DNA of 34,406 nucleotides from an uncultured Pseudomonadota bacterium (GTDB lineage Bacteria > Pseudomonadota > Alphaproteobacteria > UBA9219): positions 1 through 34,406 of the forward strand of contig CAIXHP010000037.1 in the NCBI GenBank assembly GCA_903919315.1, in the 5' to 3' direction. How positions within the stretch are numbered: the stretch's first letter is position 1; every line of letters begins with the position of its first letter. The notes below the pieces were generated by a model that was not told where the DNA came from, ran no database searches, and saw only the letters and a list, made by a program, of their open reading frames with translations. A program made the translations under genes and the position numbers. This document shows, in pieces, positions 645 to 32,348 of the stretch.

Positions 645-2471
645 TCAACACCCCATCCACTTCGATTTAATGATGACTGGTGCCGGGCTTAACGGTTGAT
701 TCGATTTTTTCTGTTCGGCAGCAGCAAGAAATGCTCCCGCCTCCTCATTCAGCCGCAGCCCCATGCTGATAAGGCCGTGCAGGGCGGCGGTGGCGTAGAC
801 GAAGGTGTCGAGCGCCTCGTTGCGTTCGCCGTCGCGGCGCGGTTGCCATGAGCGGATGGGACGGCCACGCTCGAAGCGCGTGACCACGCGCTCCGCCGTC
901 AGCTGCCGAAAATATTCGGCGTCGCGCTCAACCGGAAAATGGATGCAGCCCGGCCCGGCTTCGGTCAGGCGCAGGCGAGCGAACAGCGCGTCCTTGACGG
1001 CATCGACGCCGATGACGAACAGCGGCACCTTGCCTTTGGTGCGGGTCGGGCGGCGCGGCCAGACAGGGATGCCAGCGCCACCACGCCCCTTGATGCCCCA
1101 GATACGCCGCGCAAGGCGGGTGCGGCAGAACTCGTAGGCCATTTTGGTGTGATGTCCGCCGGTGTCGATGCAGGCGGCGCGGATCGGCAGGTCGGGCATG
1201 TGGGCAGCATGCGGGTATGTCGTGCACAAAAAAGCGTCAAGGTCAGCCCAGATGCGCGGGCCGGAGGGATCGCCCCAGATCACGCGATAATCTACGCTCC
1301 ACGATTCCTCGTCCATGCCCCAACCGATAACCTGAACCTCGATGCGGTCGCCCTGCACATCGACACCGGCGGTGAGCAAGGCAATGCCTTTGGGCAAAAG
1401 CCCGCCCCAGTTCTCGCGCCGCGCCATTAGCGGATCGGCCTCGACGACTTCGCCCGCCATGTCCTCCCAGCTTTCGGCAAGCTTGGTGTTTGTCCAGACC
1501 TGCAGACGCGGTGGATCGCGCATGACCTGCCCATGCTCAAGGGCGATCTCCGCCCATGTCTCCCACGGGCTGTACAGCGCCGAGAGGTGGAATCCCGCCG
1601 TGCGCCCATCGCCGGATGCCGTCGCCCGCCATGCGCCGCGCTCCAGCAGTTTCGGCTTGTCATGCTCCTGATGCACGCTGCCACAGGCCTCACAAACCAG
1701 ATAAGCCTCGTGCCGCATCTTGTCCGGCCAGTGAATCCGCGCCCATGTGATGGGAGCCATGTCGCCGCAATGCAGGCACGGTACAAAGTATTTGCGCTGG
1801 TCGGATTCCAGATACGCCGCCTCGATGCGGCTGTGGTTTTTCAGGGTCGGCGTCGAGACCATGTAAATCTTGCGCCGTCCCCGGAAGGTCGCGGTACGCT
1901 GCACGGCCAGGGCCACGGGATCGCCTTCGCCACCAGCGTCCGCCGGATAACCATCCACCTCGTCCAGAAACAGATACCGTACCGGCGTCGAGCGCAGGCC
2001 GATGGCGCTGTTGGCTCCGGTCATCACCAGTTGCCCGCCGGGGAAGGATTTGCGGAACAGGCTGTTGCCTGCGTCTCTGGATCGCGGCGGCGACACCAGA
2101 TCACGCAGAACCGGCATGGTCTCGATCATCGGATCGATGCGCACCGCCGTGTTCCGGCGCACCATATCGAGCGACGGCTGCACCATCATAGCAATGCCGG
2201 GAGCGTTCTGGATGATGTAGCCAATCCATCCAAGGCCAGCTTCCGTCCCGCCGACCTGTGCTCCCTTCATCAGCACGACCCGCTCATACGGGCTGGAACT
2301 CGACAACGCATCCATCACCTCGCGCAAATACGGCGTCCGGCTGGTGCGCCAGCGGCCCGGTTCTGCCGACGCAGGCGGCAAGATGCGGTGCCGGTCGGCC
2401 CATGCCGAGACCATGATCTGCGGTTCCGGGCGCATGCCGCGCCGCCATGCGGAATCAATCGTGGCCAACAT
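645..2471 (-). CDS. Phage terminase large subunit, GpA family
   Basis: This 608-residue protein is the DNA-packaging motor that cuts concatemeric phage DNA and drives it into the prohead. An ATPase half carries a Walker A-like GAQVGGTE at 70-77 and a Walker B YLFLDEVDG at 166-174. A zinc-binding pair of CxxC motifs follows (C232/C235 and C260/C263). The nuclease half has acidic residues in GVD (370), CIDTGG (436) and the typical late segment ALDTFVYATAALHGL. Length and motif order fit the GpA family (lambda GpA type). It overlaps the end of the small-subunit gene by 17 bases, implying translational coupling. Nothing suggests inactivation, so the element may supply its own packaging specificity. 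Confidence 0.93.
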   Translation of the reverse strand: MLATIDSAWRRGMRPEPQIMVSAWADRHRILPPASAEPGRWRTSRTPYLREVMDALSSSSPYERVVLMKGAQVGGTEAGLGWIGYIIQNAPGIAMMVQPSLDMVRRNTAVRIDPMIETMPVLRDLVSPPRSRDAGNSLFRKSFPGGQLVMTGANSAIGLRSTPVRYLFLDEVDGYPADAGGEGDPVALAVQRTATFRGRRKIYMVSTPTLKNHSRIEAAYLESDQRKYFVPCLHCGDMAPITWARIHWPDKMRHEAYLVCEACGSVHQEHDKPKLLERGAWRATASGDGRTAGFHLSALYSPWETWAEIALEHGQVMRDPPRLQVWTNTKLAESWEDMAGEVVEADPLMARRENWGGLLPKGIALLTAGVDVQGDRIEVQVIGWGMDEESWSVDYRVIWGDPSGPRIWADLDAFLCTTYPHAAHMPDLPIRAACIDTGGHHTKMAYEFCRTRLARRIWGIKGRGGAGIPVWPRRPTRTKGKVPLFVIGVDAVKDALFARLRLTEAGPGCIHFPVERDAEYFRQLTAERVVTRFERGRPIRSWQPRRDGERNEALDTFVYATAALHGLISMGLRLNEEAGAFLAAAEQKKSNQPLSPAPVIIKSKWMGC

Positions 2472-2973
2472 CGCGCAGACTTTCCAGAGGGGTTTCGGCC
2501 AGATGCTCCAGATGTTCGCGCATCAGCCGGTCGAGAACCGCGAAGGCGCGGTTGGGATCGGCCCCCAGTTCGCCCGCGATTACCGGTGCCGATCGCTGCA
2601 CCCACGCGATATGGGCATCCCGTTCGGCCCGCGCGCGGGCAAACACCGTGCTGGTCGCCTCATCGGCGTCGATCAGTCTGCCGCGCTCCTGTTCCAGCGC
2701 CAGCTTGGCCCGTTGCACCTGCACGATCAGATGCAACCGCCGCGCCTCGGCCAGCGATGGCGAGCCGGACTCGGTTCGCATAACGCCACCCTTGTTCCGT
2801 TTGGTGGGATCGAGATTGGCCTCCATCCATGCCAGTCCCGCCTCGACATCAACCCGCCCGTCCTCCCGCACCGGCAGCCCGTCCGCGACCAGTTGCGAGA
2901 TACGGGCCTTGGTCAACCCCACCCGCGCGGCGAAATCGGTCTTGCTTTCGGCCCCAGCGTTAAGTTTAGGCAT
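2455..2973 (-). CDS. Phage terminase small subunit, Nu1-like
   Basis: A 172-residue protein beginning MPKLNAGAESKTDFAARVG, with a helix-turn-helix around residues 10-40 (ARVGLTKARISQLVADGLPV). Nu1-type small terminases use such a domain to bind the packaging (cos/pac) site. The rest is strongly helical and charged, with a long segment around 75-120 suited to oligomerisation. It directly precedes the large subunit with a 17-base overlap, the usual terS-terL order. The start is an ATG with a GGGG-rich stretch 7 bases upstream. The assignment rests on position plus the N-terminal HTH. Confidence 0.8.
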   Translation of the reverse strand: MPKLNAGAESKTDFAARVGLTKARISQLVADGLPVREDGRVDVEAGLAWMEANLDPTKRNKGGVMRTESGSPSLAEARRLHLIVQVQRAKLALEQERGRLIDADEATSTVFARARAERDAHIAWVQRSAPVIAGELGADPNRAFAVLDRLMREHLEHLAETPLESLRDVGHD

Positions 2974-3115
2974 GTTTCAGCCCCGATGCTGGAAATGCGC
3001 CGCGCTTTGCGCGCCCGCATGCGTTTTGCCGGACAGGACCCGCGCCGTTTTGGTGTAAGGGCGTGACAGGCCGTCCCATCCGTTGCAACAGGACGACAAT
3101 CGTGCGGCTGGCGGG

Positions 3116-3340
3116 TGACGCACTGGTGACGCATGAATGACGCAAAAACCCGTGCAAGCCTTTGATAGTGTTGAGATGACGCACCGGGCATCCAACCCTT
3201 TTGTATAGGGGGTAAATGTATGTCTCTTTTTCTCCACGCTTTTCCGCGTATACGCGATGGTTGACAGGTCGGTGCGTCATCTCAACACTATCAACAGGTT
3301 GCACCAGAAAATGCGTCACCATTGCGTCACCCATGCGTCA
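3116..3340. other. Candidate replication origin: mirror-symmetric array of eight TGACGCA iterons with a 25-bp inverted repeat
   Basis: Four copies of TGACGCA lie on the left at 3116, 3127, 3138 and 3177. Four reverse-complement copies (TGCGTCA) lie on the right at 3273, 3312, 3323 and 3334. The outer three on each side are spaced exactly 11 bp, one helical turn. The inner copy on each side sits in a perfect 25-bp inverted repeat (3162-3186 and 3270-3294). Between the arms is an AT-richer stretch and a 12-bp palindrome CGCGTATACGCG at 3245-3256. The array abuts the P4-type primase-helicase gene and its right arm overlaps that gene's last codons. In phage P4 the alpha protein binds regularly spaced iterons at its own origin, so this is probably the element's ori. 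The 342-base gap between genes (2974-3315) holds nothing else evident. Confidence 0.65.
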
Positions 3341-5895
3341 CCGCCGCTTTCGTAATCCTGCGCAGCCGAAAGCGACGATGCGGATTTGAGGGTAAGGCCG
3401 AGAAACACGCGTCCATATTTTGTGCGTTTGTGCTCGATCCCTGCCGCGTTGGCCTGCACGCGCTGGACGAAGCCGTTGATCGCAGGCAGCTTGTCATTCT
3501 TGAAGCCCTCCGCGACGGCCCAGTTGTGGAATCGTTCGTACGCCGCGCGAGTGGTGATGGACGGCCCGCCGTTATGCACTGGCGTCGTTTCCACGCATTC
3601 AGCCACCCATGCCAGCACGGGATCGGCTCCCAGCACCCAGTCAGCCAGCGCTTGCCGACTGGACGCGGGGATTGTGAAATCCCGTTGCCGCATCAGACGA
3701 GCCGCTCCCTCGACAACCCATGCCAGCAGCAGGTCAGCTTCCTCGGCTGCAATGCGCCGACCAATGCCTTCGATCCTTTCATTGACCGGAATCACGCGGT
3801 TGAAGGTCAGCACCAGCAAGCGCCGCTGCACCCCGCGATCCATGCCGCCCTGAAACGGCGGCAGCGTGTTCGTGGCGAAGATGTTCTGCGCGACGGGCCG
3901 GAACTCGACGCGGCTTTTATACACATCGCGGCCCTCCACGGGTTCGCCGGTGACAATGGCCTTGAACACATCGGAGGTGATCGCCGCCGAGGAAGAAAGT
4001 TCGTCGCTGGCGTTGAGCAGCTTTCCGGCGAGACCCACGATATGCCGCGCGGCGCTCAGCGAACAAATGGCGGTGGCGGGCAACAGGCCACGTCCGAGGT
4101 CGAGAAGCTGGCTTTTGCCGTTCTCGGCGCATTCGCCCTTGAACACCGCCGCCTTGGGTTGGCGGAGCTTCGTCGCATGGCCCAGCGCCGCAGCGCCGAA
4201 CAATTCGGCCAGCAGTTTTTGTTTGTCCTCCCTGTCGCTGTCGTTTTTAAAGGTTCCGTCGAGCAGTCTGTAAAGCAGCGTATCCGGCGCTGGCGTGGCG
4301 CAAGCGTCTTTCGACCAGCGGCCTGGCAAGGTATGGCGGCAACGGTGATCGCGGCTGTGGGGTTGCAGTACGGGCATGCCGGACGAATATTCGATAAATC
4401 CTGACGCGCAGTTGATGCCGCCGGGCGCATCCGCGAAAAAGTTTGGCTGCTCGGTCAGAACGGCCAGTTCGTTCAGAGCGGACTCAATGCGCCCCTTGCT
4501 CAGCTTGACGCAGGTTAGATCGCCGCCCGGCGTGGAATAAGGCGCGCCGTCATAAGGGTGCACGACTAGGTGCATCTGGTGATCCGGTATCGCCTCCCAA
4601 TGGGTTTTTCCGTAGCGCCAGAATTGCCCTTCGGCATGGACGATGGGGCCGTATTGTTCGAGCAAATCCTCCCGAACGCGTCTGGCGATCTCGACATCCG
4701 AACCGATGAGAACGCTGCGCGGATTGTAGGCGGTTGCTTCCGCCTGCTGCGTGGCAGCGTTTGCGATCAGGGCACGAATGGCGTCCTCGCCGCTTTCCCG
4801 CAGCACATCGTTGAAATCCTTGCCTTCCGGCGGCGACGCAAGCGCCACCTCGTGGCCCCCCGCCTTCAGCCGCGCCACGGCGCGGGCAATCTGGTTGTCG
4901 GCCTTGCTGCCGGGAGCGTCGCCGTCACGCGCGACGATGACAGGGGCTTTTTCCGGCACCGGAGCCTTGGCGATATTGCTAATGCCGAGGCAGGCCCATG
5001 TCTCCTGTCCCGTCGCCTGCCAGACGGACAGCGCCGTTTCCACGCCTTCGGCCAGAATAAGCGGCGGCGCTCCCGGCATCCGCACAGCGGCTTTCAACGC
5101 CCATCCCTCGACCGCCTTGTTGGTGCGCTTGACGATCTCGACGGCAGCCTTTTTGCCGTCCTCGGTGATATAGATTTGCTGCACAGCAAGGACTGCGCCT
5201 TTGTCATCCGTTGCCACCACGATCAGAGCGCCGTATTTGCCGAAGGCGCGGGGGCGAAAGCCAAGGCAGGAAGGCAGAGTCCCCGTAATGCCGCGATTGC
5301 GCAAGTAGCGCTCAGCGGGCGTGCCGTTGACGACGCTGCATCCGGCAATGATGCTGGCGGCTTTCGCGGCCCGTTCCTCAGGCGTCGGCTCACGGGAAGG
5401 CGTCTTGCCGTTCGGATCGGGAACTGGCGGCGGGTCAACAACAGACTCAACGTCAACATCCGCCACTGGACGCGGGATATCCACCTGAGCAGGAGATGGA
5501 GGCGATGGAGGCGAAAACGCAACCGGCGCAGCGGGCGGTGTTTCCGCAACCTGCGCGTCAGCATGTCCGGTTACAGGACGGAACTCGGGCAACCCCAGCC
5601 ACTGCCGTGCCCAGTCCAGAGCCTCGCCGTTCCGCAATCCACGCTCGCGGGTGACAAGCTCCAGCGCCCCGCCGCCCTTGCCATGTTCGTGGTCATACCA
5701 CGTTCCGGCCTTTTCGCCGTCGATCTCGATGGCGAGGCTTCCTTTCTTGCCATAGCGCCACTGCGCCTTGCTCGACAGCGCGTCGTTCGGTCGCCCCAGC
5801 AAATGCACCGCGAGTTCGTCCATGCGCTCCGCAAGCCGCTGGACGATCTCATGCGCGGAAATGTCCGAAGCACTGATGGTATGGGGAGTGGTCAC
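3316..5895 (-). CDS. P4-type primase-helicase with Toprim and D5/DUF5906-like ATPase
   Basis: An 859-residue replication protein of the P4-alpha kind, expected to bind the origin, prime DNA synthesis and unwind DNA. The N-terminal 110 residues resemble a degenerate primase entry domain (GTWYDHEHGKGGGALEL at 64-80). A proline-rich linker follows (about 115-170), then a Toprim domain with LAEGVETALS at 281-290 and ARDGD at 322-326. The C-terminal superfamily 3-like ATPase has a Walker A-like GECAENGKSQ at 587-596, an acidic LLNASDEL at 626-633 and the motif IFATNTLPPF near 672-681. The start is GTG (5893-5895) with GGGAGG upstream, overlapping the preceding gene's stop as GTGA. Its last codons run into the iteron array. 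Confidence 0.88.
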   Translation of the reverse strand: MTTPHTISASDISAHEIVQRLAERMDELAVHLLGRPNDALSSKAQWRYGKKGSLAIEIDGEKAGTWYDHEHGKGGGALELVTRERGLRNGEALDWARQWLGLPEFRPVTGHADAQVAETPPAAPVAFSPPSPPSPAQVDIPRPVADVDVESVVDPPPVPDPNGKTPSREPTPEERAAKAASIIAGCSVVNGTPAERYLRNRGITGTLPSCLGFRPRAFGKYGALIVVATDDKGAVLAVQQIYITEDGKKAAVEIVKRTNKAVEGWALKAAVRMPGAPPLILAEGVETALSVWQATGQETWACLGISNIAKAPVPEKAPVIVARDGDAPGSKADNQIARAVARLKAGGHEVALASPPEGKDFNDVLRESGEDAIRALIANAATQQAEATAYNPRSVLIGSDVEIARRVREDLLEQYGPIVHAEGQFWRYGKTHWEAIPDHQMHLVVHPYDGAPYSTPGGDLTCVKLSKGRIESALNELAVLTEQPNFFADAPGGINCASGFIEYSSGMPVLQPHSRDHRCRHTLPGRWSKDACATPAPDTLLYRLLDGTFKNDSDREDKQKLLAELFGAAALGHATKLRQPKAAVFKGECAENGKSQLLDLGRGLLPATAICSLSAARHIVGLAGKLLNASDELSSSAAITSDVFKAIVTGEPVEGRDVYKSRVEFRPVAQNIFATNTLPPFQGGMDRGVQRRLLVLTFNRVIPVNERIEGIGRRIAAEEADLLLAWVVEGAARLMRQRDFTIPASSRQALADWVLGADPVLAWVAECVETTPVHNGGPSITTRAAYERFHNWAVAEGFKNDKLPAINGFVQRVQANAAGIEHKRTKYGRVFLGLTLKSASSLSAAQDYESGGDAWVTQW

Positions 5896-7290: not shown

Positions 7291-8400
7291 ATGGCCACCA
7301 TCCGCAAAAGAGTCCTGCCTTCGGGCCTGATTCGCTGGCAGGTGGACTTTGCCGATGGTATGGGGCAGCGCCGGTCACGCCTGTTCGAGCGGCGCAAGGA
7401 TGCGGATGCCTTTATCATCCGGGCGCGAGCGCAGGTGCAAAACGGCACCTACCTGCACGACAGCACCAGCCCGACCCTTGGCGAGATAGCCGAGGCATGG
7501 CTCGATCATTGCCGTATTCGCCGCGATGCCGGACGGCGCATGGAAAAGGCGACCTGCCGCGATTATGAAGACAAGGTGCGGCTGCACATCAAAGACGCGG
7601 TGTACGGCATTGCAAACATCAAACTTTCACAACTGAACCGCAAGACGATCAACGAGTTCCGCGACCGCCTGCTTGCATCCGGACGTTCGGAAGCCATGAC
7701 GAGGAAAATCCTCGGCGTCCTTCGACTCATCCTGAATCACGCGATGGACAACGGACAGCTTCACTCCAATGCGGCGCAGGGCGTGCGCGTGCTGCGCTCG
7801 ACCCGCATGGATCATAAAATATCCGCGCCGACCAAGGAAATGGTCAAAACGCTGCTGGACAATTCGACCGGTCGGCTTCGCGCTATGCTGGTCGTCAGCG
7901 CCCTGTGCGGTCTGCGGGCGTCCGAGACGCGAGGGTTGCGCTGGAGGGACATAGATTTTCCGTGCGGATTTATTCATGTGCGCCAGCGCGCTGATTTTTA
8001 CTGCGAATTGGGCGAACCAAAATCCGCCGCCGGACATCGCGCTGTTCCTGCAGGGCCGCTCGTTCTGAACACGCTACGCCGCTGGAAAGAAGAATGCCCG
8101 GCAAGCCAGTACGATCTGGTCTTTCCGGCCAAAAACGGCGAGGTTGCAGATCACAATCATTTTATGCGACGGAAATTTAAGCCGCTGTGCGCCGCGCATG
8201 GCATCACGATGCGCTGGCACGACCTGCGGCATTTTGCGGTTTCGCTATGGATCGAACAAGGCTTCAGCATCAAGGAGATCATGACCTTCGCCGGTCACGC
8301 ATCGGTGCAAATGACGATGGAGCGGTACGGCCATATGTTCCCAACGCCCTGCCATCAGCAGGCCATGGCGCAGGTGGAGCAGCGCCTGTTCGCGTCATGA
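7291..8400 (+). CDS. int: Tyrosine site-specific recombinase (integrase)
   Basis: A 369-residue phage-type integrase that recombines attP with the host attachment site. The N-terminal 50 residues form an arm-binding-like domain (MATIRKRVLPSGLIRWQVDF), residues about 60-165 the core-binding SAM-like domain, and 175-350 the catalytic domain. All catalytic residues are visible: R209 in LCGLRASE, K244 in EPKSAAGHR, H310 and R313 in WHDLRH, H336 in FAGHAS and nucleophile Y346 in MERYGHMF. It points toward the tRNA-fMet att copy at 9395-9439 about 1 kb away, the natural target of this enzyme. It is convergent with the next gene, with only 4 bases between stops. It appears complete. Confidence 0.95.
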   Translation: MATIRKRVLPSGLIRWQVDFADGMGQRRSRLFERRKDADAFIIRARAQVQNGTYLHDSTSPTLGEIAEAWLDHCRIRRDAGRRMEKATCRDYEDKVRLHIKDAVYGIANIKLSQLNRKTINEFRDRLLASGRSEAMTRKILGVLRLILNHAMDNGQLHSNAAQGVRVLRSTRMDHKISAPTKEMVKTLLDNSTGRLRAMLVVSALCGLRASETRGLRWRDIDFPCGFIHVRQRADFYCELGEPKSAAGHRAVPAGPLVLNTLRRWKEECPASQYDLVFPAKNGEVADHNHFMRRKFKPLCAAHGITMRWHDLRHFAVSLWIEQGFSIKEIMTFAGHASVQMTMERYGHMFPTPCHQQAMAQVEQRLFAS

Positions 8401-10169: not shown

Positions 10170-11753
10170 ATGAAGTCGAGAATCACCCCTATGTCACCCA
10201 ACCGCGCGGCAAGCAAAGAACGCAAAAAAAGCTTTGTTGCGCGATGCATGCTTGCTCTTGTTTTTTTGATCTCTTTGTTCGTCCATGCACCGCAAGCCCA
10301 ATCTGCCGAAACAACCACCTCTCCACTGGTTGAACTCCCCTCCTTCAAAAGTGAGAACGGGGTGCTAACGGCAACGTTAGTGGCCGGCGAGCAAAAGGTG
10401 CAGCTTGGCGCCGTGAGTTTCGATGGCTTGGTTTATAATGGCTCCTATGCCGCGCCGGTCTTTTACGTACATCCAGGCGATGTCATGAAGATCAAGCTTG
10501 TCAACAATCTCAAAATTCCGACAAACCTACATTTTCATGGTTTTCATTCTTCCCCGCTCGGCAACGGCGACAATATCCATATCGTTGTCAATCAAGGACA
10601 GTCTTTCGATTACGAAATCAAACTGCCCCTTACCCAGCCTCCGGGCGTTTATTGGTATCATGCCCATATTCACGGTATGTCCGAATTACAAATCGGGAGC
10701 GGACTTAGTGGTACAGTGGTTGTCGAAGGCATTTAGCAGCAGATGCCGCAATTGGCCAACGTAAAGCAGCAACTGTTTGTTCTGAAAGATCACCAGTTTA
10801 CCGATGGTAGCGACCCCGAAGTTAAAAATCTTCACAAGCTGGTGCAGTCCATCAATGGCCAGACCTTCTCAACCATGACGATGCATCCAGGGGAAACGCA
10901 GCTCTGGCGCTTTACCAATCAAAGCGCCAATTTGATTTTTAACATTGCTTTAAAAGGACATCGGTTTCGCATCATCGAAACCGATGGCGTAGTTACCAAT
11001 CAAGAAAAACAAGTTGATACGCTGGAATTACTTCCAGCCGGACGGTTGGAGGTGTTGGTGGATGCTGGTGCAGCTGGTACCTACGATCTTGTATCGCCCC
11101 ATACCATGACAGGCGTGGGTGACAAAATGACTGAGGAACGTGTGTTGGGCCAACTGACTGTCGAAGGAACCCAAGAGTCGACTCTTGCTACGCAAACTGC
11201 TTTTCCGGAGAAAGTCGACTGGCGAACGAAGAAAATCGACACCTACAGGACTATTGTCTATTCACAATCATACGATAAAAAAAGCGACGATATGAGTTAT
11301 TATATCAATGGGCAGATGTTTGACCATAATCGCATAGATACGCGCGTTCCATTAGGCAATATCGAAGAGTGGACGATCAAAAATAATACTGATGACTTTC
11401 ATTCGTTTCATATTCATCAAATTCATTTTCAGGTAGCAGAAATTAACGGCAAGCCCCAGCCTTTTGATAATTATGTTGACACTGTTCGCATACCAGAACG
11501 CGGTGAGGTCAAGCTGATTTTGCCGTTTGTTGATCCACAAATCGTTGGAACCTTCGTATATCACTGTCATGTTTTAGAACATGAGGACAAAGGTATGATG
11601 CAACAGATTGAAGTTTACGATCCAAAAGAGTCGCCTATCAGACGATGGTGGCACGATATGTTTTCTTGCTGCTCATCAATGAAATTTAGCGGCGGGTGTT
11701 TTGGGTCAAATATCCGAAGACTCTGGTGGAGTCTGACTACAAAACAGATATAA
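10170..11753 (+). pseudogene. Multicopper oxidase interrupted by one in-frame amber stop
   Basis: A laccase/CueO-like periplasmic oxidase that uses four copper atoms to oxidise substrates such as Cu(I) with O2. A signal peptide covers about residues 20-46 (hydrophobic LALVFLISLFV, cleavage after AQSA). All copper motifs are present: HFHG (121-124), WYHAHIHG (162-169), HSFHIH and YHCHVLEHEDKGMM near the C-terminus. The frame is broken at codon 189 (TAG, 10734-10736) between VVVEGI and QQMPQLAN; both sides are in the same frame, so one base change (for example CAG to TAG) explains it. The second part could restart at ATG 10743 but would lack half the copper ligands. The gene ends in an odd Cys-rich tail (FSCCSS). 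It converges on the Sco gene. Confidence 0.8.
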
Positions 11754-18951: not shown

Positions 18952-19289
18952 TTTTTCTTACTCCATCGATCAATGGTGTCTTGGATGGTTTTTTGATCTT
19001 CTGGGTCTAGCTTCTTGAAGCTACGAAATAGTGCGTTCTTAAGAACTTCATCGCCTGGTTTGGTCGACCCTTCATCTAACAAATAATCCGCTGTTATCCC
19101 CAGTGCCGCCGCTACCGTCGTAAGTTTCTCTGCCGAAGGTTTTCGGGTGTCACGGTTTTCAAGTTCCCAAAGGTAGCTTTTGCTGGAGCCGGTGATTTCG
19201 GCCAGTTTGTCGAGGGAATACCCCTTGTCTTGTCTGCATTTTCTAAGTTTGTCGCCAAGTCGTGATGTCACGGCTGTTTTCTCCTGCAT
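18948..19289 (-). CDS. XRE-family transcriptional repressor
   Basis: A 113-residue protein with a lambda-repressor-like helix-turn-helix: LGDKLRKCRQDKGYSLDKLAEITGSSKSYLWELENR, residues about 11-46. The short C-terminal tail (FRSFKKLDPEDQKTIQDTIDRW) suits dimerisation. It probably binds the two dyads at 19309-19326 and 19359-19376 and represses itself and the divergent plus-strand genes. The ATG at 19287-19289 lacks a good ribosome-binding site, but AGGAG inside the frame lies 9 bases before an in-frame GTG (19269-19271), which may be the true start. Confidence 0.88.
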   Translation of the reverse strand: MQEKTAVTSRLGDKLRKCRQDKGYSLDKLAEITGSSKSYLWELENRDTRKPSAEKLTTVAAALGITADYLLDEGSTKPGDEVLKNALFRSFKKLDPEDQKTIQDTIDRWSKKK

Positions 19290-19308
19290 ACTAGGGTGGT
19301 CAATAGTT

Positions 19309-19376
19309 GTTCGACGTACATCGAACTATTATGTGCTTGACAAGAGAATTGCGAAGATGTTCGATATACACCGAAC
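19309..19376. promoter_or_regulatory. Divergent control region with two repressor operator candidates
   Basis: GTTCGACGTACATCGAAC at 19309-19326 is an 18-bp dyad (16 of 18 positions symmetric). GTTCGATATACACCGAAC at 19359-19376 is a second, less symmetric copy; the centres are 50 bp apart. A consensus -35 box TTGACA at 19337-19342 points toward the plus-strand genes, and a weak -10 (TTCGAT, 17-base spacing) would lie inside the second operator, so binding there should block that promoter. These are the likely targets of the adjacent XRE protein. The gap between genes runs from 19290 to 19488. Confidence 0.7.
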
Positions 19377-19488
19377 AAAAACGTACTCTATCGAAAAGAA
19401 GATTGCAAGCACACACCACAACATCGACACCCCAACAAAACTCCCCCCGTTACATCAGAGGTTCACCAATGAAAGGATAAGGTCAATC

Positions 19489-20667
19489 ATGAGCGCCGCA
19501 GTTCACCGCTTCATTCGTTTCGTTCCCGTTCAAAATCTTCAAGATAGCTTCGTTGCCTATGCTCCCCAGATCGCCGCAAACACCGACTGGAAACAGGATG
19601 ACAAAAAGCTAAGACGATCACTGATAAAATCTGTTGAGTCGGCTACCGATAAAGAGCTGGCAACGATCCTCGCCAATATTGAACGGATCGACGAAATGAG
19701 TGATGAGATTGGGCAAGCCGCGCTGCTGTCGGCTATTTCCAACAAGACTCTCTTTTCCAGTTTGCCGGATCCGCACACGCGTGCAGACTGGGCGCTCCGT
19801 CATGAACCTGATGCGTTTTTTCGGGCAGAAAGCATTTGTTATGCCGATGGAGGGAGAGACAACCGTCGCATTTATTCTGGTTTTCATATTAAGCCAGGTC
19901 TGAAGCCCAACACAGATGAAGTTTCTACTTTTGCCTTTGAGGACGCAATAAGCAAGCTCGTCGGCAATGACCGCAAGGTAAAGCTGGATCGGTTTGAACG
20001 TGAAAGAACAGACGCTAAGGGCATAAAAATATCGCTTTGCCACTACACAATCTATTACGAAACGTTGCCCCAAACGACAAAAGTCTTCAATGAAGCGGAC
20101 AACATTGAGCCTGTTGCCATAAAACCGGCGCGTGAAGCTGCTCTTGTATTTGATTCATCGAGTGGGCTGATCGAGGTTCTTTGCGACATCAAAGAAATTC
20201 GCGTGGAGATCGCGCGTGCGTTCGTTTCTTGTATCCTCAAAAGCGAAGATGAAGCCGAAAGCGTAGCCTTGCGCGAGTACGATCTTGATAGGTTGCTTCG
20301 TCCTCACGCTTTTTCCAGGGATCCTGAGGATTGCCTTGCAAGTGTAAAGGTGGACTTGCTCCGCATGCGCGATATCGAAGGGAAGAACAATCGAATACAG
20401 GTTTCCCTCGCGTCCGACGAAACCCGCAGCTTGTACGATTATTGCCGGGATAGATTTGGCTCCTACGACCCGACTCGCAACGGATCCTACGCCTCTATGG
20501 CGTCTATCACTATTCGCAAACAGCCACCGCAGGGACGCAAGCGCGGCAAGACGATACACCTCAAGCTAACCTACCCCAACGGATGCGATCTGAGCGGGCG
20601 TCCGGAATCAGAGCGAAACATGCTTGAGAAATACCTTGCTAAGTGGGAACTGGTGCGTGCTGTCTAA
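19489..20667 (+). CDS. Uncharacterised protein A of the XRE/ImmA-linked module
   Basis: About 392 residues, not recognised. Start ATG at 19489-19491 was chosen because AAGG lies 6 bases upstream and the frame before it runs through the operators. Residues 1-100 are helical and charged (RRSLIKSVESATDKELATILANIERID). The middle (about 165-260) alternates strands and helices (ISLCHYTIYYETL, AALVFDSSSGLIEVLCDIKEIR). The last 90 residues are basic (SITIRKQPPQGRKRGKTIHLKLTY), compatible with nucleic-acid binding. No signal or membrane segment. It overlaps protein B by 11 bases and is divergent from the XRE-ImmA pair, so it is probably repressed until ImmA acts. Confidence 0.7.
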   Translation: MSAAVHRFIRFVPVQNLQDSFVAYAPQIAANTDWKQDDKKLRRSLIKSVESATDKELATILANIERIDEMSDEIGQAALLSAISNKTLFSSLPDPHTRADWALRHEPDAFFRAESICYADGGRDNRRIYSGFHIKPGLKPNTDEVSTFAFEDAISKLVGNDRKVKLDRFERERTDAKGIKISLCHYTIYYETLPQTTKVFNEADNIEPVAIKPAREAALVFDSSSGLIEVLCDIKEIRVEIARAFVSCILKSEDEAESVALREYDLDRLLRPHAFSRDPEDCLASVKVDLLRMRDIEGKNNRIQVSLASDETRSLYDYCRDRFGSYDPTRNGSYASMASITIRKQPPQGRKRGKTIHLKLTYPNGCDLSGRPESERNMLEKYLAKWELVRAV

Positions 20668-21595
20668 AACTTCCAGCCCAAAACTATCACTTGAGGATTT
20701 TGATGCGCTGTTGCGGTTTTCTGAAACCGCAACAGCCATTACCGGCATGCCTGAATTGCTGCGCATGTTTCCCTTGAACTGCCAGAAGATTCTTGCATCC
20801 GGCGCATTCTCTGAAGAACAGCATGCATTGACGGTAGTCCCGCTGGGCAGCGATCAGGAAAAAGACGTAGAATGGAACGATGACGTCGGGGGTTATGCTT
20901 ATTTCAGCGCACGCGGGTGGGTAAAGATCGATGCCAATCTTCTTAGGCGATATAGGCTCAATACGCAGTGGGTCGTAGACCAAATTCTACAGGCACTTTC
21001 GTGGCCACAGAAAACCGAGCCTTTATTGGATGGGGTGCTCTGGAATTGCGGTCAATCCTATATTGGCAAAAAACGTGTCACTCTTTTTGTAGGTCGGCGC
21101 GTTGCGCATCCAGAAGTTTTCACAGATATCCAGAAGAAATTAACCCCGCGTTGCAGATCTGGTGCCCATGTTTTGCTTACAACGTCGCGGCATATAGAGC
21201 CACAAATGTCTATCCCTGGCGCGACAATAATTCCCTTGGTCGATGTATTAGACCGACAGCGTAAACATTTTGCGCTGGATGCTGCTCTCGTATCGAGCAT
21301 TTTGTTCGATCAACGTCCTGACGAAAGCAACAAGGTCGTTCTCTGCAAGGCGAATGGTGGCAAACTCATCATCAACGGACACAGTTTTGAGTTTCGAGGC
21401 GACAAGCAGAGACAGGTCGTCCAATACCTCTGCAATAAATACGACGCTGGTGAACTCCCTGTGCGTATTCAGGACATGTTCTCTGATCTTGAATTTGCCG
21501 ATAACACACGGATGCAAGATTTATTCAAAAAACACCCGGATTGGAAAAAGGCCATTTATGTCTCTCGCGGTAGCTGCGATTTGATCACGGCTTAA
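20657..21595 (+). CDS. Uncharacterised protein B of the XRE/ImmA-linked module
   Basis: About 312 residues, not recognised. I chose GTG at 20657-20659 (VLSKTSSPK), overlapping the end of protein A by 11 bases; an ATG at 20624 in the same frame is possible. The N-terminal half contains acidic and aromatic segments (EKDVEWNDDVGGYAYFSARGW). The C-terminal 85 residues (GGKLIINGHSFEFRG... QRQVVQYLCNKYDAGELPVRIQDMF) look like a winged helix-turn-helix of the response-regulator output type, so DNA binding is plausible. No enzyme motif is seen. Tight overlap implies it works with protein A. A C-rich tract immediately follows its stop. Confidence 0.65.
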   Translation: MLSKTSSPKLSLEDFDALLRFSETATAITGMPELLRMFPLNCQKILASGAFSEEQHALTVVPLGSDQEKDVEWNDDVGGYAYFSARGWVKIDANLLRRYRLNTQWVVDQILQALSWPQKTEPLLDGVLWNCGQSYIGKKRVTLFVGRRVAHPEVFTDIQKKLTPRCRSGAHVLLTTSRHIEPQMSIPGATIIPLVDVLDRQRKHFALDAALVSSILFDQRPDESNKVVLCKANGGKLIINGHSFEFRGDKQRQVVQYLCNKYDAGELPVRIQDMFSDLEFADNTRMQDLFKKHPDWKKAIYVSRGSCDLITA

Positions 21596-21597
21596 TT

Positions 21598-21635
21598 CCC
21601 CCCTTCTTCCCCCACATACCCCCCACGTTCTCCCC
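21598..21635 (-). other. Four-run G tract (minus strand), potential G-quadruplex
   Basis: Plus-strand C runs of 6, 5, 6 and 4 at 21598-21603, 21609-21613, 21619-21624 and 21632-21635, with spacers of 5-7 bases, give a canonical four-run quadruplex pattern on the minus strand. The plus-strand transcript would instead be C-rich and G-poor, as Rho-loading sites are. It lies just after the stop of protein B, so it may end that transcript. Confidence 0.5.
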
Positions 21636-21650
21636 ACCTCAGTTTTGCGA

Positions 21651-21690
21651 GGCTTTCCTTGTCGTTACGCGACATAGCGAAAGGAAAGCC
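21651..21690 (+). promoter_or_regulatory. Hairpin in the leader of the phage early operon
   Basis: GGCTTTCCTT (21651-21660) and AAGGAAAGCC (21681-21690) form a perfect 10-bp inverted repeat around a 20-base loop that itself contains GTCG...CGAC. The right arm includes the AGGAAAG ribosome-binding site of the AlpA-like gene (ATG 21696), so in RNA the fold would hide that site. It could also be a dyad operator at DNA level. Confidence 0.45.
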
Positions 21691-21695
21691 AGCAA

Positions 21696-21959
21696 ATGGA
21701 ACGAACCTTCTTAAATCAGAGCGAACTCTCCCAGCGTTGGGGAATTTCGCCACGCACCCTCGAACGTTGGCGCTGGCTGGGCGAAGGCCCCCGTTTTCTA
21801 AAACTGGGTGGCCGCGTCGTTTACCGCCTTGAGGACATCGAGGCGTTCGAGGCCGAAAAGCTGCGCAGCAGCACAAGCCAGACAGAACCTCTTGTCCCCG
21901 ATTATCGCAATGAGCGCGTCGTGGGTACCGTCAACTCCAGTCAAGGAGCTGCCCGATGA
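21696..21959 (+). CDS. AlpA/MerR-like helix-turn-helix protein of the right element
   Basis: An 87-residue protein beginning MERTFLNQSELSQRWGISPR. The pattern QSELSQRWGISPRTLERWRWLGEGPRFLKLGGRVVYRLEDIEAFEAE is the HTH_17/AlpA-type winged helix of phage excisionases and early regulators. It is the first gene of the plus-strand early operon, and its ribosome-binding site sits in the hairpin above. Its stop overlaps the next start (ATGA). No integrase is visible nearby, so its role as excisionase or transcription factor is open. Confidence 0.8.
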   Translation: MERTFLNQSELSQRWGISPRTLERWRWLGEGPRFLKLGGRVVYRLEDIEAFEAEKLRSSTSQTEPLVPDYRNERVVGTVNSSQGAAR

Positions 21960-22420
21960 AAAAGCCCGACATATCCCAACCAGATCTTGAGTCCGCGTTC
22001 CGCATGCCCATCAGGCGCTTGCTGGAGCTGGACGAAGCCCAAATCCACCAGCTGCTGACACAGGCCGATTTTATGGGTCGGTGGCTGCGAGGAGTTCTGC
22101 GTCTCAAACCACCAAAGGAAACCACGAAAATGTCCAACGAAAACCTAAATAAGTTACGCAACAGCGGCCCCTACACCAGCTTGCCGGAATGCATCCTCAT
22201 TCCTCCCATCGGAGATCGCCAGAGCAAAATTATCAAGCCAATAGAATTGGCGACACTCGACGACGTCGCATTTGCCATCATAGCCGTTGAGGCCGAAGTC
22301 GATGCGCTCAACAGCCGCTTCTATGCCTTGCGTCGTCTCTACAACGCCGCGCGCGCAAGAGGTGCATTCGGTAGCCAGAACGCCGTTGATGCCGTCGCCA
22401 GCGATAAGGGAGGCAACTAA
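21956..22420 (+). CDS. Phage hypothetical protein, early operon
   Basis: A 154-residue protein not assigned to a family. The start (MKKPDISQPDLES) forms a 4-base ATGA overlap with the AlpA-like gene, so coupling is likely. The N-terminal 60 residues are helical and basic. A second ATG at 22130 (MSNENLNKLRNSG) could mark the start of a separate shorter protein, since the sequence changes character there. The C-terminal half includes a helix AFAIIAVEAEVDALNSRFYAL. Its stop overlaps the next start (TAATG). Confidence 0.65.
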   Translation: MKKPDISQPDLESAFRMPIRRLLELDEAQIHQLLTQADFMGRWLRGVLRLKPPKETTKMSNENLNKLRNSGPYTSLPECILIPPIGDRQSKIIKPIELATLDDVAFAIIAVEAEVDALNSRFYALRRLYNAARARGAFGSQNAVDAVASDKGGN

Positions 22421-23286
22421 TGCCGCTTCCCATTATCAGCGCCGATGAACGGTTGGCAGAAAAACGTGGCGTCAAAGGCTGCATTTTCGGAAAGAGCGGC
22501 ATCGGCAAAACCTCCTTGCTCTGGACGCTCAACGCCAGCTCGACAATGTTCTTCGATCTTGAGGCTGGCGATCTCGCCATCGAGGGATGGAGCGGTGACA
22601 CGATCCGTCCGCGTACTTGGCAGGAATGCCGTGACTTCGCAGTCTTCATCGGTGGCCCCAATCCAGCGCTGCGTGACGACCAGCCATATAGCCAGGCACA
22701 TTTCGACGCCGTCAAGGAACGCTTCGGCGAACCTGCTGCGATTGAAAAATATGAAACTGTGTTCGTTGATAGCATCACCGTTGCCGGGCGCCTCTGCTTC
22801 CAGTGGTGCAAAGGCCAGCCGCAGGCATTCAGTGACAAAACGGGCAAGCCCGACACACGCGGCGCTTACGGTCTTCACGGTCAGGAGATGATCGCTTGGC
22901 TGACACATCTGCAGCACACGCGCGGCAAGAATATCTGGCTCGTCGGAATTCTCGACGAAAAGATGGACGACTTTAATCGTCGCTTCTTCTCGCCGCAGAT
23001 TGAAGGCTCGAAAACTGGTCTTGAGCTGCCCGGCATCGTCGATGAGGTCATCACGATGGCTGAACTGAAGGCTGATGACGGAACACCTTACCGCGCTTTC
23101 GTCTGCCACACGCTCAATCCGTTCGGCTTTCCGGCCAAAGACCGCTCCGGTCGCCTCGACATGGTCGAGGAACCGCATCTCGGAAGACTCATGGCGAAGA
23201 TCGCCGGTGCAGCGAAACCCGCACCGGAACGCCTGACCTACACCCGCCCCGAACCAGTCACCACAGCATCAACGCAAGGAGAATAA
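22420..23286 (+). CDS. Phage P-loop ATPase, AAA_24/Sak4-like
   Basis: A 288-residue RecA-fold ATPase with Walker A GKSGIGKTS at 24-32 and Walker B-like TVFVDS near 113-118. A short sensor region (LRGKNIWLVGI-type segment, here HTRGKNIWLVGIL) and a variable C-terminus follow. Phage proteins of this type (AAA_24, Sak4-like) are thought to support recombination or replication fork repair, often beside an ssDNA-binding protein, exactly as here. GGGAGG precedes the ATG. The last 25 residues are Pro/Thr-rich. Confidence 0.85.
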   Translation: MPLPIISADERLAEKRGVKGCIFGKSGIGKTSLLWTLNASSTMFFDLEAGDLAIEGWSGDTIRPRTWQECRDFAVFIGGPNPALRDDQPYSQAHFDAVKERFGEPAAIEKYETVFVDSITVAGRLCFQWCKGQPQAFSDKTGKPDTRGAYGLHGQEMIAWLTHLQHTRGKNIWLVGILDEKMDDFNRRFFSPQIEGSKTGLELPGIVDEVITMAELKADDGTPYRAFVCHTLNPFGFPAKDRSGRLDMVEEPHLGRLMAKIAGAAKPAPERLTYTRPEPVTTASTQGE

Positions 23287-23289
23287 GCC

Positions 23290-23886
23290 ATGTCCATTTG
23301 GAACGATTTCAGCAGTGCCGACGATCAAAAGAGCTTCGATGTAATTCCGAAAGGCACCATTGCCCGTGTACGCATGACGATCAAGCCGGGCGGCTATGAC
23401 GATCTGCGCGAAGGCTGGGATGGCGGCTATGCCACTCGCAGCGTCACGACTGGTGCCATTTATCTGAACTGCGAGTTTGTGGTTCTGGAAGGCCCTTATG
23501 CCCGGCGCAAGGTATGGAGCATGATCGGCCTTTTCAGCTCCAAGGGTGCTGAATACGCCAACATGGGACGCTCCTTCATCAAAGGAATTCTCAATTCAGC
23601 GCGCGGGTTTTCATCAAAAGACGAGACGCCGCAGGCTGTCGCTGCACGGCGTATCAACGGCTTTGCTGATCTTGACGGAATAGAATTTGTCGCCCGTATC
23701 GACGTCGAGAAAGACCAACGCAACGGCGAAGATCGCAACGTCATCAAAACAGCGATTACCAAGGAGCACAAAAGCTACCCGACCGGCCAAGCGGCCTATA
23801 CGCCGCCCGCGCCGCAGGCATCGCCACAAACCCAGTCCACCCCGCAACAGGCGCCAGCCAGCAATCTTCCCTCCTGGGCGCGGTGA
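23290..23886 (+). CDS. Phage ssDNA-binding-like protein
   Basis: A 198-residue protein with a compact beta-rich N-terminal domain (SFDVIPKGTIARVRMTIKPGGY... YLNCEFVVLEGPYARRKVWSMIGLF), a helical middle, and a Gln/Pro/Ala-rich tail ending NLPSWAR. The architecture, folded core plus disordered tail, and the position right after a Sak4-like ATPase fit a phage single-stranded DNA-binding protein (DUF669-like). The tail is not acidic as in bacterial SSB, so a standard SSB interaction tip is absent. AAGGAG precedes the ATG. Function rests partly on context. Confidence 0.65.
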   Translation: MSIWNDFSSADDQKSFDVIPKGTIARVRMTIKPGGYDDLREGWDGGYATRSVTTGAIYLNCEFVVLEGPYARRKVWSMIGLFSSKGAEYANMGRSFIKGILNSARGFSSKDETPQAVAARRINGFADLDGIEFVARIDVEKDQRNGEDRNVIKTAITKEHKSYPTGQAAYTPPAPQASPQTQSTPQQAPASNLPSWAR

Positions 23887-23894
23887 GGTGAACC

Positions 23895-25556
23895 ATGTTG
23901 TTACGACCAAGACAAAAGCAGCTCGTCACGCGATCGGTGGACGCTTTGAACAAACACGGCAACACGCTGGCCGTGGCGCCCACCGGCGCGGGCAAGACGA
24001 TCATGCTGTCCGCGATCATCGGGGAAATGTTCAAAAGCGACAGCGCAAAGGCTTGTGTGCTAGCGCACCGGGATGAATTGACAGCACAGAACGAGGGTAA
24101 GTTTCGGCGGGTCAATCCTACCATCGATACCAGCGTCTATGACGCTTCGGTCAAGTCATGGGACGGTGATGTCACCTTTGCAATGGTGCAGACACTTTCC
24201 CGCGAAAGCAACCTTGCGAAAATGCCGCCTGTCGATGTGCTGGTCATTGACGAAGCTCATCACGCCCGCGCCGACAGCTATATGCGGGTCATAGATCGAG
24301 CCAAAGCCGTTAATGCCAATCTGAAGCTGCTCGGCATGACGGCCACGCCCAATCGCGGTGACAAAAAAGGACTGCGACCCATCTTTTCCAACGTGGCTGA
24401 TCAGATCACGGTCAAGGAACTAATCGCATCTGGCCACCTTGTACCCCCACGCACCTTCGTCATGGATGTTGGCGTGCAGGATGAGTTACGGCAGGTCAAA
24501 AAGACGGCCAGCGATTACGACATGGGCGCTGTTGCCGCGATCATGAACACGCGCCCCATCAACGACGCTGTCGTCAAGCACTGGAAGGAAAAAGCAGGTG
24601 ATCGCAATACTGTAGCTTTCTGTTCGACCGTTGCGCATGCCGAGGCTGTTGCCGCCAGCTTTAACGCGGCTGGCGTGCCTGCCGTCATTGTTCATGGCGA
24701 AATGTCGGATACCGAGCGCAGCGCGGTACTTACTGAATATACCGAAGGCCGGGCGCAAGTGATCGTCAACGTGGCTGTCCTGACGGAAGGTTGGGATCAC
24801 CCGCCGACCGCGTGCGTCGTGCTGCTTCGCCCCAGTTCTTACAAATCCACCATGATCCAGATGATCGGGCGCGGTCTGCGCACGATTGATCCAGCCGAAT
24901 ATCCTACTGTGGTGAAAAAAGACTGCGTCGTTCTCGACTTCGGAACATCCACGCTGCTGCATGGCTCGCTGGAGCAAGACGTCAATCTCGATGACCACAT
25001 GGGCGAAGGTGAAGGGCTGACCAAGGATTGTCCGGAATGTGGCGCCGAAGTTCCTGCCGCCGTCAAGGAATGCCCTTTGTGCGGTTATGAATGGGAACAG
25101 CAAGCGGCGCATGGCGCAGTGGCTTCAGGCAACTTCGTTATGTCGGAGATTGACCTTTTGAAACGGTCAAGTTTTCTCTGGGTCGATCTACAAGGCAACG
25201 ACAAATACTATCTTGCTACCGGCTTCAACGCTTGGGGCGGTGTGTTTCTCAAAGACGGCGCATGGCACGCGATTGGTGGCATCAAGAGCCAGCAGCCGAA
25301 ACATCTGGCAGTGGGCGAACGCATCGTTTGCTTTGCCGCTGCTGATGATTGGCTCAACCTCTATGAGAGTGACGAGACAGCGCACAAAACGCGCTCGTGG
25401 ATTCATCAGCCTGCTACCGCAAAGCAGCTTCAATATCTTCCCGGCCACCGTAACGACTACAACCTGACGCGCTACAAGGCTTCGGCGTTGCTCACGGCGC
25501 AGTTCAATCGCGACGGCATCAACCGCGCCATGAGCGCTGTCGGCGGTGCCGCATGA
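23895..25556 (+). CDS. DEAD/DEAH-box superfamily 2 helicase with zinc ribbon
   Basis: A 553-residue phage helicase. Motif I APTGAGKT at 28-35, motif II DEAH at 119-122 (VIDEAHH), motif III MTATP at 148-152 and motif VI QMIGRGLR at 322-329 are intact. A four-cysteine zinc ribbon follows (C379, C382, C393, C396). The C-terminal 150 residues contain a tryptophan-rich region (DLQGNDKYYLATGFNAWGG) of unknown role. This family (Irc3/RadD-like) acts in recombination-dependent replication or repair. It is followed with a 4-base ATGA overlap by the DUF6511-like gene. Confidence 0.93.
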   Translation: MLLRPRQKQLVTRSVDALNKHGNTLAVAPTGAGKTIMLSAIIGEMFKSDSAKACVLAHRDELTAQNEGKFRRVNPTIDTSVYDASVKSWDGDVTFAMVQTLSRESNLAKMPPVDVLVIDEAHHARADSYMRVIDRAKAVNANLKLLGMTATPNRGDKKGLRPIFSNVADQITVKELIASGHLVPPRTFVMDVGVQDELRQVKKTASDYDMGAVAAIMNTRPINDAVVKHWKEKAGDRNTVAFCSTVAHAEAVAASFNAAGVPAVIVHGEMSDTERSAVLTEYTEGRAQVIVNVAVLTEGWDHPPTACVVLLRPSSYKSTMIQMIGRGLRTIDPAEYPTVVKKDCVVLDFGTSTLLHGSLEQDVNLDDHMGEGEGLTKDCPECGAEVPAAVKECPLCGYEWEQQAAHGAVASGNFVMSEIDLLKRSSFLWVDLQGNDKYYLATGFNAWGGVFLKDGAWHAIGGIKSQQPKHLAVGERIVCFAAADDWLNLYESDETAHKTRSWIHQPATAKQLQYLPGHRNDYNLTRYKASALLTAQFNRDGINRAMSAVGGAA

Positions 25557-25753
25557 TCGACAAGCAGCCCCATGAAGAAGTGGCGCTTGCCGCCGTGTTG
25601 CCCCTGCTGGGCGAGTGCGTCGCCGAGATCGGTATCGACAAACCTCTTTCCGCCTACAGCCGCGCCGAAATTCTGACGCTCGTCGAAGTGGTCGTCACCG
25701 CCTATCAAGCAGCACTTTTACGCCTTCAGCCACAGGAAGGATGTCCGTTTTGA
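25553..25753 (+). CDS. DUF6511-like small protein
   Basis: A 66-residue protein starting MIDKQPHEEVALAAVLPLLG. The helical pattern with SAYSRAEILTLVEVVVTAYQAALL near the C-terminus matches small alphaproteobacterial phage proteins annotated DUF6511, of unknown function. It overlaps the helicase stop by 4 bases and the next start by one base (TGATG), placing it firmly in the operon. No catalytic motif is seen. Confidence 0.65.
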   Translation: MIDKQPHEEVALAAVLPLLGECVAEIGIDKPLSAYSRAEILTLVEVVVTAYQAALLRLQPQEGCPF

Positions 25754-26526
25754 TGTTGGATTTTAATCATCGCACAACCATTGCAGACAAAATCAACCAG
25801 TTTATTGATGCGGGGATTGTTTCGGAGCGCGTGAAGCAAGAGAAGCGTAATTATCTCGGTGCATCGCGCCTTGGCGTAGCCTGTGATCGCGCCTTGCAAT
25901 ACGAATATGTCGACGCCGCTAAAGATGAGGAAAAGGACTTTAATGGAAGGATATTGCGCATCTTTGCCATTGGCCATGTGCTTGAAGATCTGGCTGCGGC
26001 ATGGCTGCGCGCTGGCGGCTTTGATCTCTTCACGACGCGACGCAACGATCCTCAGGGCGGACAGTTTGGTTTTTCAGTCGCGCGAGGACGATTACAAGGC
26101 CATGTCGATGGCATCATCAATGCCGCGCCAGCTGAACTAAATTTGCGTTTTCCGATGCTATGGGAATGTAAATCGCTGAAAGCCTCATCGTGGAAAGATA
26201 CCGTGAAGCGCGGTGTCGCCGCATCCAAGCCAATTTATGCGGCACAGATCGCCACTTACCAGGCTTATATGGAAAGCCAGATACCGGGTCTGTCTGCAAA
26301 CGCGGCGCTGTTCACCGCTATCAATAAGGATACCGCCGAGCTTCATCACGAGCTTGTGCCGTTTGATAGCGCTTTAGCACAGCGCATGAGCGATCGAGCA
26401 GTCAAGGTCATTACCGTATCCGAGGCTGGCGAACTTCTGCCGCGCATCACGAACGATCCGGAGCATTTCGAATGCAATTTCTGCGCATGGCGGGAACGTT
26501 GCTGGAGTGCCAACCATGCAGCTTGA
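25753..26526 (+). CDS. PD-(D/E)XK superfamily nuclease (Cas4/RecB-like phage exonuclease)
   Basis: About 257 residues from the ATG at 25753-25755, which shares a base with the upstream stop; AGGAAGG lies 12 bases upstream, whereas an earlier in-frame ATG at 25741 abuts that site directly. Nuclease motifs are visible: GRLQGHVDGII (the D), WECKSLKASSW (E-x-K) and AQIATYQAYM (the QxxxY helix typical of RecB/Cas4). A C-terminal CNFCAWRERCW cysteine cluster may bind an iron-sulfur cluster or zinc. It probably processes DNA ends for phage recombination. It overlaps the next gene by 11 bases. Confidence 0.82.
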   Translation: MLDFNHRTTIADKINQFIDAGIVSERVKQEKRNYLGASRLGVACDRALQYEYVDAAKDEEKDFNGRILRIFAIGHVLEDLAAAWLRAGGFDLFTTRRNDPQGGQFGFSVARGRLQGHVDGIINAAPAELNLRFPMLWECKSLKASSWKDTVKRGVAASKPIYAAQIATYQAYMESQIPGLSANAALFTAINKDTAELHHELVPFDSALAQRMSDRAVKVITVSEAGELLPRITNDPEHFECNFCAWRERCWSANHAA

Positions 26527-28678: not shown

Positions 28679-29409
28679 CGCATGTACTTTCCAGTTGGAA
28701 ACACGTTTTCCATCTGCCAACTGCTTTCCAACAAGAATGCGGGAACATCAACAAGTTAGGCGTAAATCCAGTTGGAAATTTCCATCTGCGATTTCCAACT
28801 TGCCAACTGCCGAAAATCTTTTTGGGTTCAACGGCTTCGTCGAAATTAACTCTTGGTACGGTAAACACCTCTCCCTACGGGAGAGAGAGCCTTCCTCCAG
28901 AAGGCTCTCCTTCCAAGGTAGGGATTGTCCACCATCACCATTCCTGCGCCGTCATCCTCGCGCTTGATCTCGGCACCCATACCGGATGGGCATTGCGTCA
29001 GCGTGACAGCACGATCATCAGCGGCACGCAGCATTTTACGCCGAGCCGCTTTGAGGGTGGCGGTATGCGCTTCCTTCGCTTCAAGCACTGGCTGACAGAA
29101 ACAAAACAGGCTGCGGAAACAATTGACGGTTTGTTCTTCGAAGAAGTTCGGAGACATGCTGGTGTTGATGCAGCTCATGCTTACGGCGGGTTCCTCGCAC
29201 ATCTAACGGCCTGGTGCGAACATCACAGCATTCCGTATCGCGGCGTGCCTGTCGCCACCATCAAAAAACATGCCACCGGCAAGGGCAATGCCGACAAGGA
29301 TGCCGTGATCGCGGCGATCCGGAACAAAGGCTTTTCCCCCTCCGACGATAATGAAGCCGATGCGTTGGCGCTTCTCGATTGGGCGCTGCGTCACGGAGGT
29401 GTCGCATGA
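28675..29409 (+). CDS. RuvC-like Holliday junction resolvase with unusual N-terminal extension
   Basis: A 244-residue protein whose RuvC-fold domain starts only at about residue 93 (VILALDLGTHTGWAL, D98), then FFEEV (E156/E157) and the acidic end DDNEADALALLDWA (D224/D225, D229, D235). These match phage RuvC-like resolvases that cut branched DNA, in which the DLG motif normally falls within the first 10-15 residues. The preceding 92 codons are repeat- and palindrome-rich. GGAG stands before the ATG, which overlaps the upstream stop (ATGA), and no other ATG or GTG lies before the domain, so the extension is probably translated. A role in resolving replication intermediates is likely. Confidence 0.8.
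   Translation: MTHVLSSWKHVFHLPTAFQQECGNINKLGVNPVGNFHLRFPTCQLPKIFLGSTASSKLTLGTVNTSPYGRESLPPEGSPSKVGIVHHHHSCAVILALDLGTHTGWALRQRDSTIISGTQHFTPSRFEGGGMRFLRFKHWLTETKQAAETIDGLFFEEVRRHAGVDAAHAYGGFLAHLTAWCEHHSIPYRGVPVATIKKHATGKGNADKDAVIAAIRNKGFSPSDDNEADALALLDWALRHGGVA
28688..28909. repeat. Repeat- and palindrome-rich segment within the resolvase 5' coding region
   Basis: TCCAGTTGGAAA occurs at 28690-28701 and 28767-28778 (77 bp apart), each followed by TTTCCATCTG (28707-28716, 28779-28788), an imperfect duplication. The first copy lies in a dyad TTTCCAGTTGGAAA (28688-28701). Two tandem hairpins follow: CTCTCCC/GGGAGAG (28869-28885, 3-base loop) and a 10-bp stem GAGAGCCTTC/GAAGGCTCTC (28885-28909, 5-base loop). 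It looks like an inserted palindromic element plus binding-site repeats rather than conserved protein sequence. Confidence 0.6.
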
Positions 29410-30090: not shown

Positions 30091-30178
30091 GGCAGACAAA
30101 ATTCGTCTTTTTGGGGTAAATTCTGGTCATGCTCAGGCGAGGCGCGTGTTATACAAATGCCCCTGAACGGAAAGCAAA

Positions 30179-30376: not shown

Positions 30377-30396
30377 GCATCGGGGTTTTTAATTGA

Positions 30397-32338: not shown

Positions 32339-32348
32339 GGGTGTGGCC

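Follow-up and report, generated by a model that had tools for sequence, protein, structure and literature searches.

The replication origins of PICI elements lie immediately 3' of rep and consist of an AT-rich region with a set of iterons on either side; the loss of either the ori or rep harms plasmid maintenance (PMC6092414). The Rep protein of the SaPIs, apparently in the form of two hexamers, has been described as using its C-terminal domain to read such an origin, and in SCCmec the C-terminal domain of the helicase Cch2 binds short repeats located just downstream of its own gene (PMC7581432). Phage P4 is described with two replicons in titles cited in PMC6092414. Capsid-forming members of the PICI group (cf-PICI) have been published mainly from Enterobacteriaceae, lactobacilli, bacilli and similar hosts (PMC10803314).

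Here we analyze an iteron array in a stretch of 34,406 nucleotides from an uncultured alphaproteobacterium, referred to below as the window, which comprises the whole contig. The array very probably is the replication origin of a phage-satellite element of the PICI type, read by the winged helix of the adjacent Rep. It contains eight copies of the heptamer TGACGCA, four of which start on the plus strand at 3116, 3127, 3138 and 3177, while the reverse complement is found at 3273, 3312, 3323 and 3334. For all four heptamer pairs the start on the plus strand and the end on the minus strand add up to 6456, which makes the symmetry about position 3228 exact to the base. The three outer iterons of the left side (3116-3144, plus strand) and those of the right side (3312-3340, minus strand) are spaced by 11 and 11 bp on both sides alike. 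Between them lies a perfect 25-bp inverted repeat, TTGATAGTGTTGAGATGACGCACCG, whose left arm (3162-3186, plus strand) encloses the inner iteron at 3177-3183 and whose complementary right arm (3270-3294, minus strand) encloses the one at 3273-3279. The array separates terS from the primase gene and spans the final eight codons of the latter, whose stop is at 3316, so that the right outer iterons overlap the end of rep. An earlier note on this DNA had listed the heptamers, their opposite orientation and phasing, the inverted repeat and the placement between the two genes, all of which we find as described. It had also reported a central 12-bp palindrome; the palindrome exists (CGCGTATACGCG, 3245-3256), but it is not central, lying about 22 bp off the array axis, and it is not kept in the relatives.

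The central spacer (3187-3269, without strand) would be the region of melting. It is only modestly richer in AT, in the window as well as in the relatives: its positions 3190-3266 have 56% AT, compared with 40% for the left 9.2 kb of the window, and the mean over 25 relatives is 51%.

The arrangement is not expected by chance, as the earlier note had argued. In dinucleotide shuffles of the region, mirrored 7-mers of the type 3+3 appeared in 0 of 3000 and of the type 2+2 in 22, and the array has 4+4. The whole window contains 16 copies of TGACGCA where 6.9 are expected, and the eight outside the array are scattered at approximately chance level. A phased heptamer triple, with up to two mismatches allowed, has no second copy in the 2.4-Mb assembly, and the paired inner-iteron pattern is present in 3 of 385 genomes of the class (0 for the reversed control). 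The earlier note had taken an equal density of heptamers elsewhere as an argument against an origin; the search for the phased array, genome-wide, and the count of single heptamers, within the window, both favor the origin. Among the relatives, the core GTGTTGAGATGACGCAC of the left inverted-repeat arm is kept, and on both sides the iterons that lie 61 and 50 bp from the inner one hardly vary, while the one at 39 bp may be absent; the fullest arrays (4+4) are those of the window and of locus L146.

The rep gene (3316-5895, minus strand) encodes an N-terminal DUF7146 domain with a DnaG-type Toprim domain, followed by a helicase of the SF3/P4 family and a C-terminal winged helix, with Pfam matches to PF23639, PF13362 and PF19263 (DUF7146, Toprim primase and DUF5906 helicase domains, respectively). 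Against TIGR01613, the P4-family primase model, it obtains 100.8 bits (E 6e-29), below the family cut-off of 108.7, and therefore, though clearly related, it is not filed as a member of that family. A profile of its C-terminal half matched one PDB sequence, that of the SaPI5 primase-helicase (7ola/7om0, E 7.5e-7), and 7ola is also the top Foldseek match. Of the structural models, only those of the N-terminal half and of the C-terminal domain, at about residues 756-843, are usable, the mean pLDDT being 56 for the whole protein and 55 for the helicase half, in which the core is poorly modelled. Structure comparison relates the N-terminal half to DnaG primase cores. The C-terminal 90 residues have the fold of the winged-helix origin-binding domain of P4 (1ka8; Z 9.4, 81 of 100 residues, rmsd 2.3 A, 22% identity), a resemblance that shows the fold but not the family, because the winged-helix DNA-binding domain of RFX (1dp7) scores equally (Z 10.2).

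The strongest evidence comes from the relatives, which were gathered by three routes, through Rep, through TerL and through the inner inverted repeat itself. Loci identical in their upstream DNA were merged, which left 69 unique ones with related TerS/TerL. TGACGCA occurs in both orientations in 30 of the 30 loci whose Rep belongs to the same C-terminal-half cluster as that of the window, compared with 0 of the 38 with other Reps; the 69th locus, L117, has a broken Rep of the window type and retains the array. Three of the 30 (L142, L146 and L152) are biased, having been retrieved by the array pattern, and in the subset retrieved by TerL only the comparison is 9 of 9 versus 0 of 38. Since the loci are related, these counts are not independent, and the Fisher value of 6e-20, which ignores relatedness, is not to be read as a probability.

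Loci with other Reps often have mirrored arrays of their own. In the second Rep cluster, with 29 members, repeats resembling TGGTGGG or GGTTGGG occupy the same place at a 9-bp phase, and an exact 2+2 mirrored heptamer is found in 13 of the 29 loci, against 0.5% of shuffles. Mirrored GGTCCGG arrays, up to 6+6, are present in the three loci L097, L107 and L138, whose Reps combine a Toprim N-terminal half like that of the window (approximately 47%) with an unrelated C-terminal half, which in L107 is of the VapE type. In L107 the GGTCCGG array lies downstream of 1755-4166, after the VapE-type Rep, as a putative origin of the same layout, which is also seen in L097 and L138. The reciprocal exchange is seen in L061, where a Prim-Pol N-terminal gene is accompanied by a helicase that is encoded separately and shares 63% identity with the C-terminal half of the window's Rep, and where a weakened TGACGCA array is present. 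Because these natural swaps exchange both together, the identity of the iterons follows the helicase/C-terminal half of Rep, and the distribution among the loci, together with the double swap, suggests that the iterons are specific to their cognate Rep. The earlier note had proposed that the array is an origin read by the adjacent P4-type primase. This proposal is supported by the linkage to the helicase half of Rep rather than to TerS, by the persistence of the array beside Rep in islands where no terS/terL was found, and by the fold that the Rep C-terminus shares with the origin-binding domain of P4. It can be refined in that, as regards layout, the nearest parallel is found in the origin of the PICI/SaPI elements, located directly 3' of rep.

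The first alternative to be considered is that the array belongs to the packaging site, cos, with the heptamers as R-sites bound by TerS around a nicking site. Sites of this kind are usually found just upstream of terS/terL, and the array does lie just upstream of terS (2455-2973, minus strand; PHROG 57, E 3e-29) and of a terL of the lambda gpA type (645-2471, minus strand; PF05876 and PF20454). However, the mean pairwise identity of TerS is 82-88% both within and between Rep clusters 0, 1 and 3, and pairs from different clusters reach 98.8-99.4% although their Rep type and iterons differ; loci with TerS 98.8% identical thus bear wholly different arrays when Rep differs. TerS is no different between groups whose arrays differ, which would not be expected of a TerS site. 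It is also kept in islands without detectable terS/terL: L004, L013 and L181 have a window-type Rep and the array, L181 and L013 together with a serine recombinase (the Pfam match is from L181 only). By eye, the L181 island also carries metal-efflux-like genes. Furthermore, terS is adjoined by a different block, which occupies 2995-3042 of the window on the minus strand, directly upstream of the gene, and which is retained together with TerS irrespective of the type of Rep. In the window the block reads GGGTCCTGTCCGGC...CGCATGCGGG...GCGCAT; in the alignment of the relatives it has the form GGTTCCT...GC..AT.CGTATG.GGGG...GCGCAGCGCAT and is conserved in 68 loci. From its position and conservation, this block is the likely cos. 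The array sequence is not tied to TerS/TerL, and we consider a packaging role for it very improbable.

Because this separate conserved block sits just before terS, the origin and the candidate cos lie side by side, and the alignment makes it likely that the intergenic region consists of two modules, one being an origin that varies with Rep and the other a probable cos that stays with TerS.

Mirrored short repeats between two genes could also be an operator at which a repressor or activator controls the transcription of terS or rep. Against this, the array sits 3' of rep, it is kept where the downstream gene is unrelated, its repeat sequence tracks the helicase half of Rep, and no promoter-like site was found at 2900-3500. 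The array goes with rep and not with the downstream gene, so we reject regulation of transcription as its main function, there being little chance that it is correct, although autoregulation by Rep bound at the ori is possible as a secondary role. Finally, an open frame of about 110 amino acids runs through the array in several loci (ORF 2966-3334 in the window), but it is almost certain that the repeats are not the trace of a conserved small protein, because the iterons are conserved but the frame is not: the distance between inner iterons, which ranges from 73 to 103 bp among the relatives (the L009 row of the distance table being a misreading in which an outer iteron was taken as the inner one), takes all three remainders modulo 3 (14, 9 and 7 loci). 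The earlier note likewise held that coding could hardly explain the array.

Under the origin interpretation, the C-terminal winged helix of Rep would bind the TGACGCA iterons, and each mirror-image half-array would seat one hexamer of Rep, so that the two face each other across the spacer of approximately 90 bp. The two helicases could then melt the spacer and unwind it in both directions, with the Toprim domain of the same Rep making the primers for a presumably bidirectional replication. No DnaA box was found in the array, which led us to reject a DnaA-dependent origin of the host type; this absence and the modest AT content of the spacer also count somewhat against the origin interpretation.

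The element to which this origin would belong has a tyrosine integrase (7291-8400, plus strand; PF00589, PHROG 1) and, to judge from the gene order in relatives, appears to continue from the window onto a second contig, C29. Encoded on this contig are a lambda-type portal and a protease-capsid protein, which share 84% and 79% identity with their counterparts in L061, as well as a cytosine methylase. The cf-PICIs lack tail genes and depend on a helper for mobilisation; on C29 the capsid gene is soon followed by a PEP-utilising enzyme, likely a host gene, and tail genes could lie on other contigs. With integrase, rep, array, terS, terL, portal and capsid in approximately 15 kb, the element looks like a capsid-forming PICI-like satellite; if the join to C29 holds, the gene set of the cf-PICIs (integrase, primase, terS/terL, portal and capsid) is present. 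Neither the window nor C29 contains a tRNA gene, which rules out a tRNA attachment site in them, and a search for direct att repeats between the integrase side and C29 returned only matches of 11-15 bp, at chance level.

Other features of the same genome were observed. Two ORF pieces at facing contig ends, at 135-563 of the window and at 144-482 of L188, the latter beside a C5-methylase (L188:495-1820), are possibly one restriction gene of a restriction-modification cassette of the satellite; neither has a Pfam match. On contigs C23 and C30 of this genome (G000), three more lambda-type terL genes with matching portal genes (L176, L179, L180 and L184-L186), approximately 46-50% identical, likely belong to prophages, which are candidate helpers. 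Within the window, positions 19180-34406 resemble the early region of a prophage (HTH_17, AAA_24 ATPase, helicase, AAA_25/Toprim primase, methyltransferases and HNH), and at 10170-11753 a multicopper-oxidase-like frame is split near 10740, by eye possibly through a frameshift or an assembly error.

In a broader sense, the results point to a family of replicon cassettes that can be exchanged between alphaproteobacterial satellites, a reading which we regard as probable: the helicase half of Rep and a mirror-phased ori would be swapped as a unit beside a fixed cos-terS-terL, and the same cassette is also found in serine-recombinase islands without detectable terminase genes. The locus offers a compact and testable pair of origin and initiator, with natural domain swaps in sister elements. 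These swaps could be used to locate the part of a P4/SaPI-like helicase that reads the iterons, and could reveal how a mirrored array loads a pair of opposed helicases. The locus would also extend the range of PICI-type origins and of capsid-encoding satellites to alphaproteobacterial elements.

Compared with the systems described to date, the array fits a known kind of origin, and the arrangement is unusually clean here because a change of helicase among the relatives is accompanied by a change of repeats. To this kind the locus adds the evidence from swaps, the exact mirror with helical phase, the fusion to a DnaG-type primase and the adjacency of ori and cos. As in the PICI/SaPI origins (SaPI1, SaPIbov1 and EcCICFT073), the array is directly 3' of rep, overlapping its end in the window and the relatives alike, and has one iteron set on each side of a more AT-rich stretch, a likeness drawn from the text description, the exact mirror being stated for this array alone; the initiator is likewise a primase-helicase, related to that of SaPI5 (7ola). 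Unlike those origins, it has a different iteron sequence, its Rep is a DnaG/Toprim primase fused to the helicase, and the candidate cos and terS-terL directly adjoin the ori. The alpha protein of P4 is also a primase-helicase whose origin-binding domain is a C-terminal winged helix (1ka8), and recognition of iterons by the domain of Rep is presumed; in contrast to the ori and crr of P4, there is here one compact array immediately 3' of rep, and, unlike alpha, Rep falls just under the TIGR01613 cut-off (100.8 vs 108.7). Cch2 of SCCmec resembles the predicted behavior of Rep, being an initiator helicase whose C-terminal domain reads repeats downstream of its own gene, but it belongs to another class of element, works with a separate polymerase-primase, and has a few direct repeats and not a mirrored phased array. 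Finally, the cf-PICIs share with this locus an element of approximately 14-15 kb with integrase, primase, terS/terL, portal and capsid, and differ in their hosts, the relatives studied here being alphaproteobacterial.
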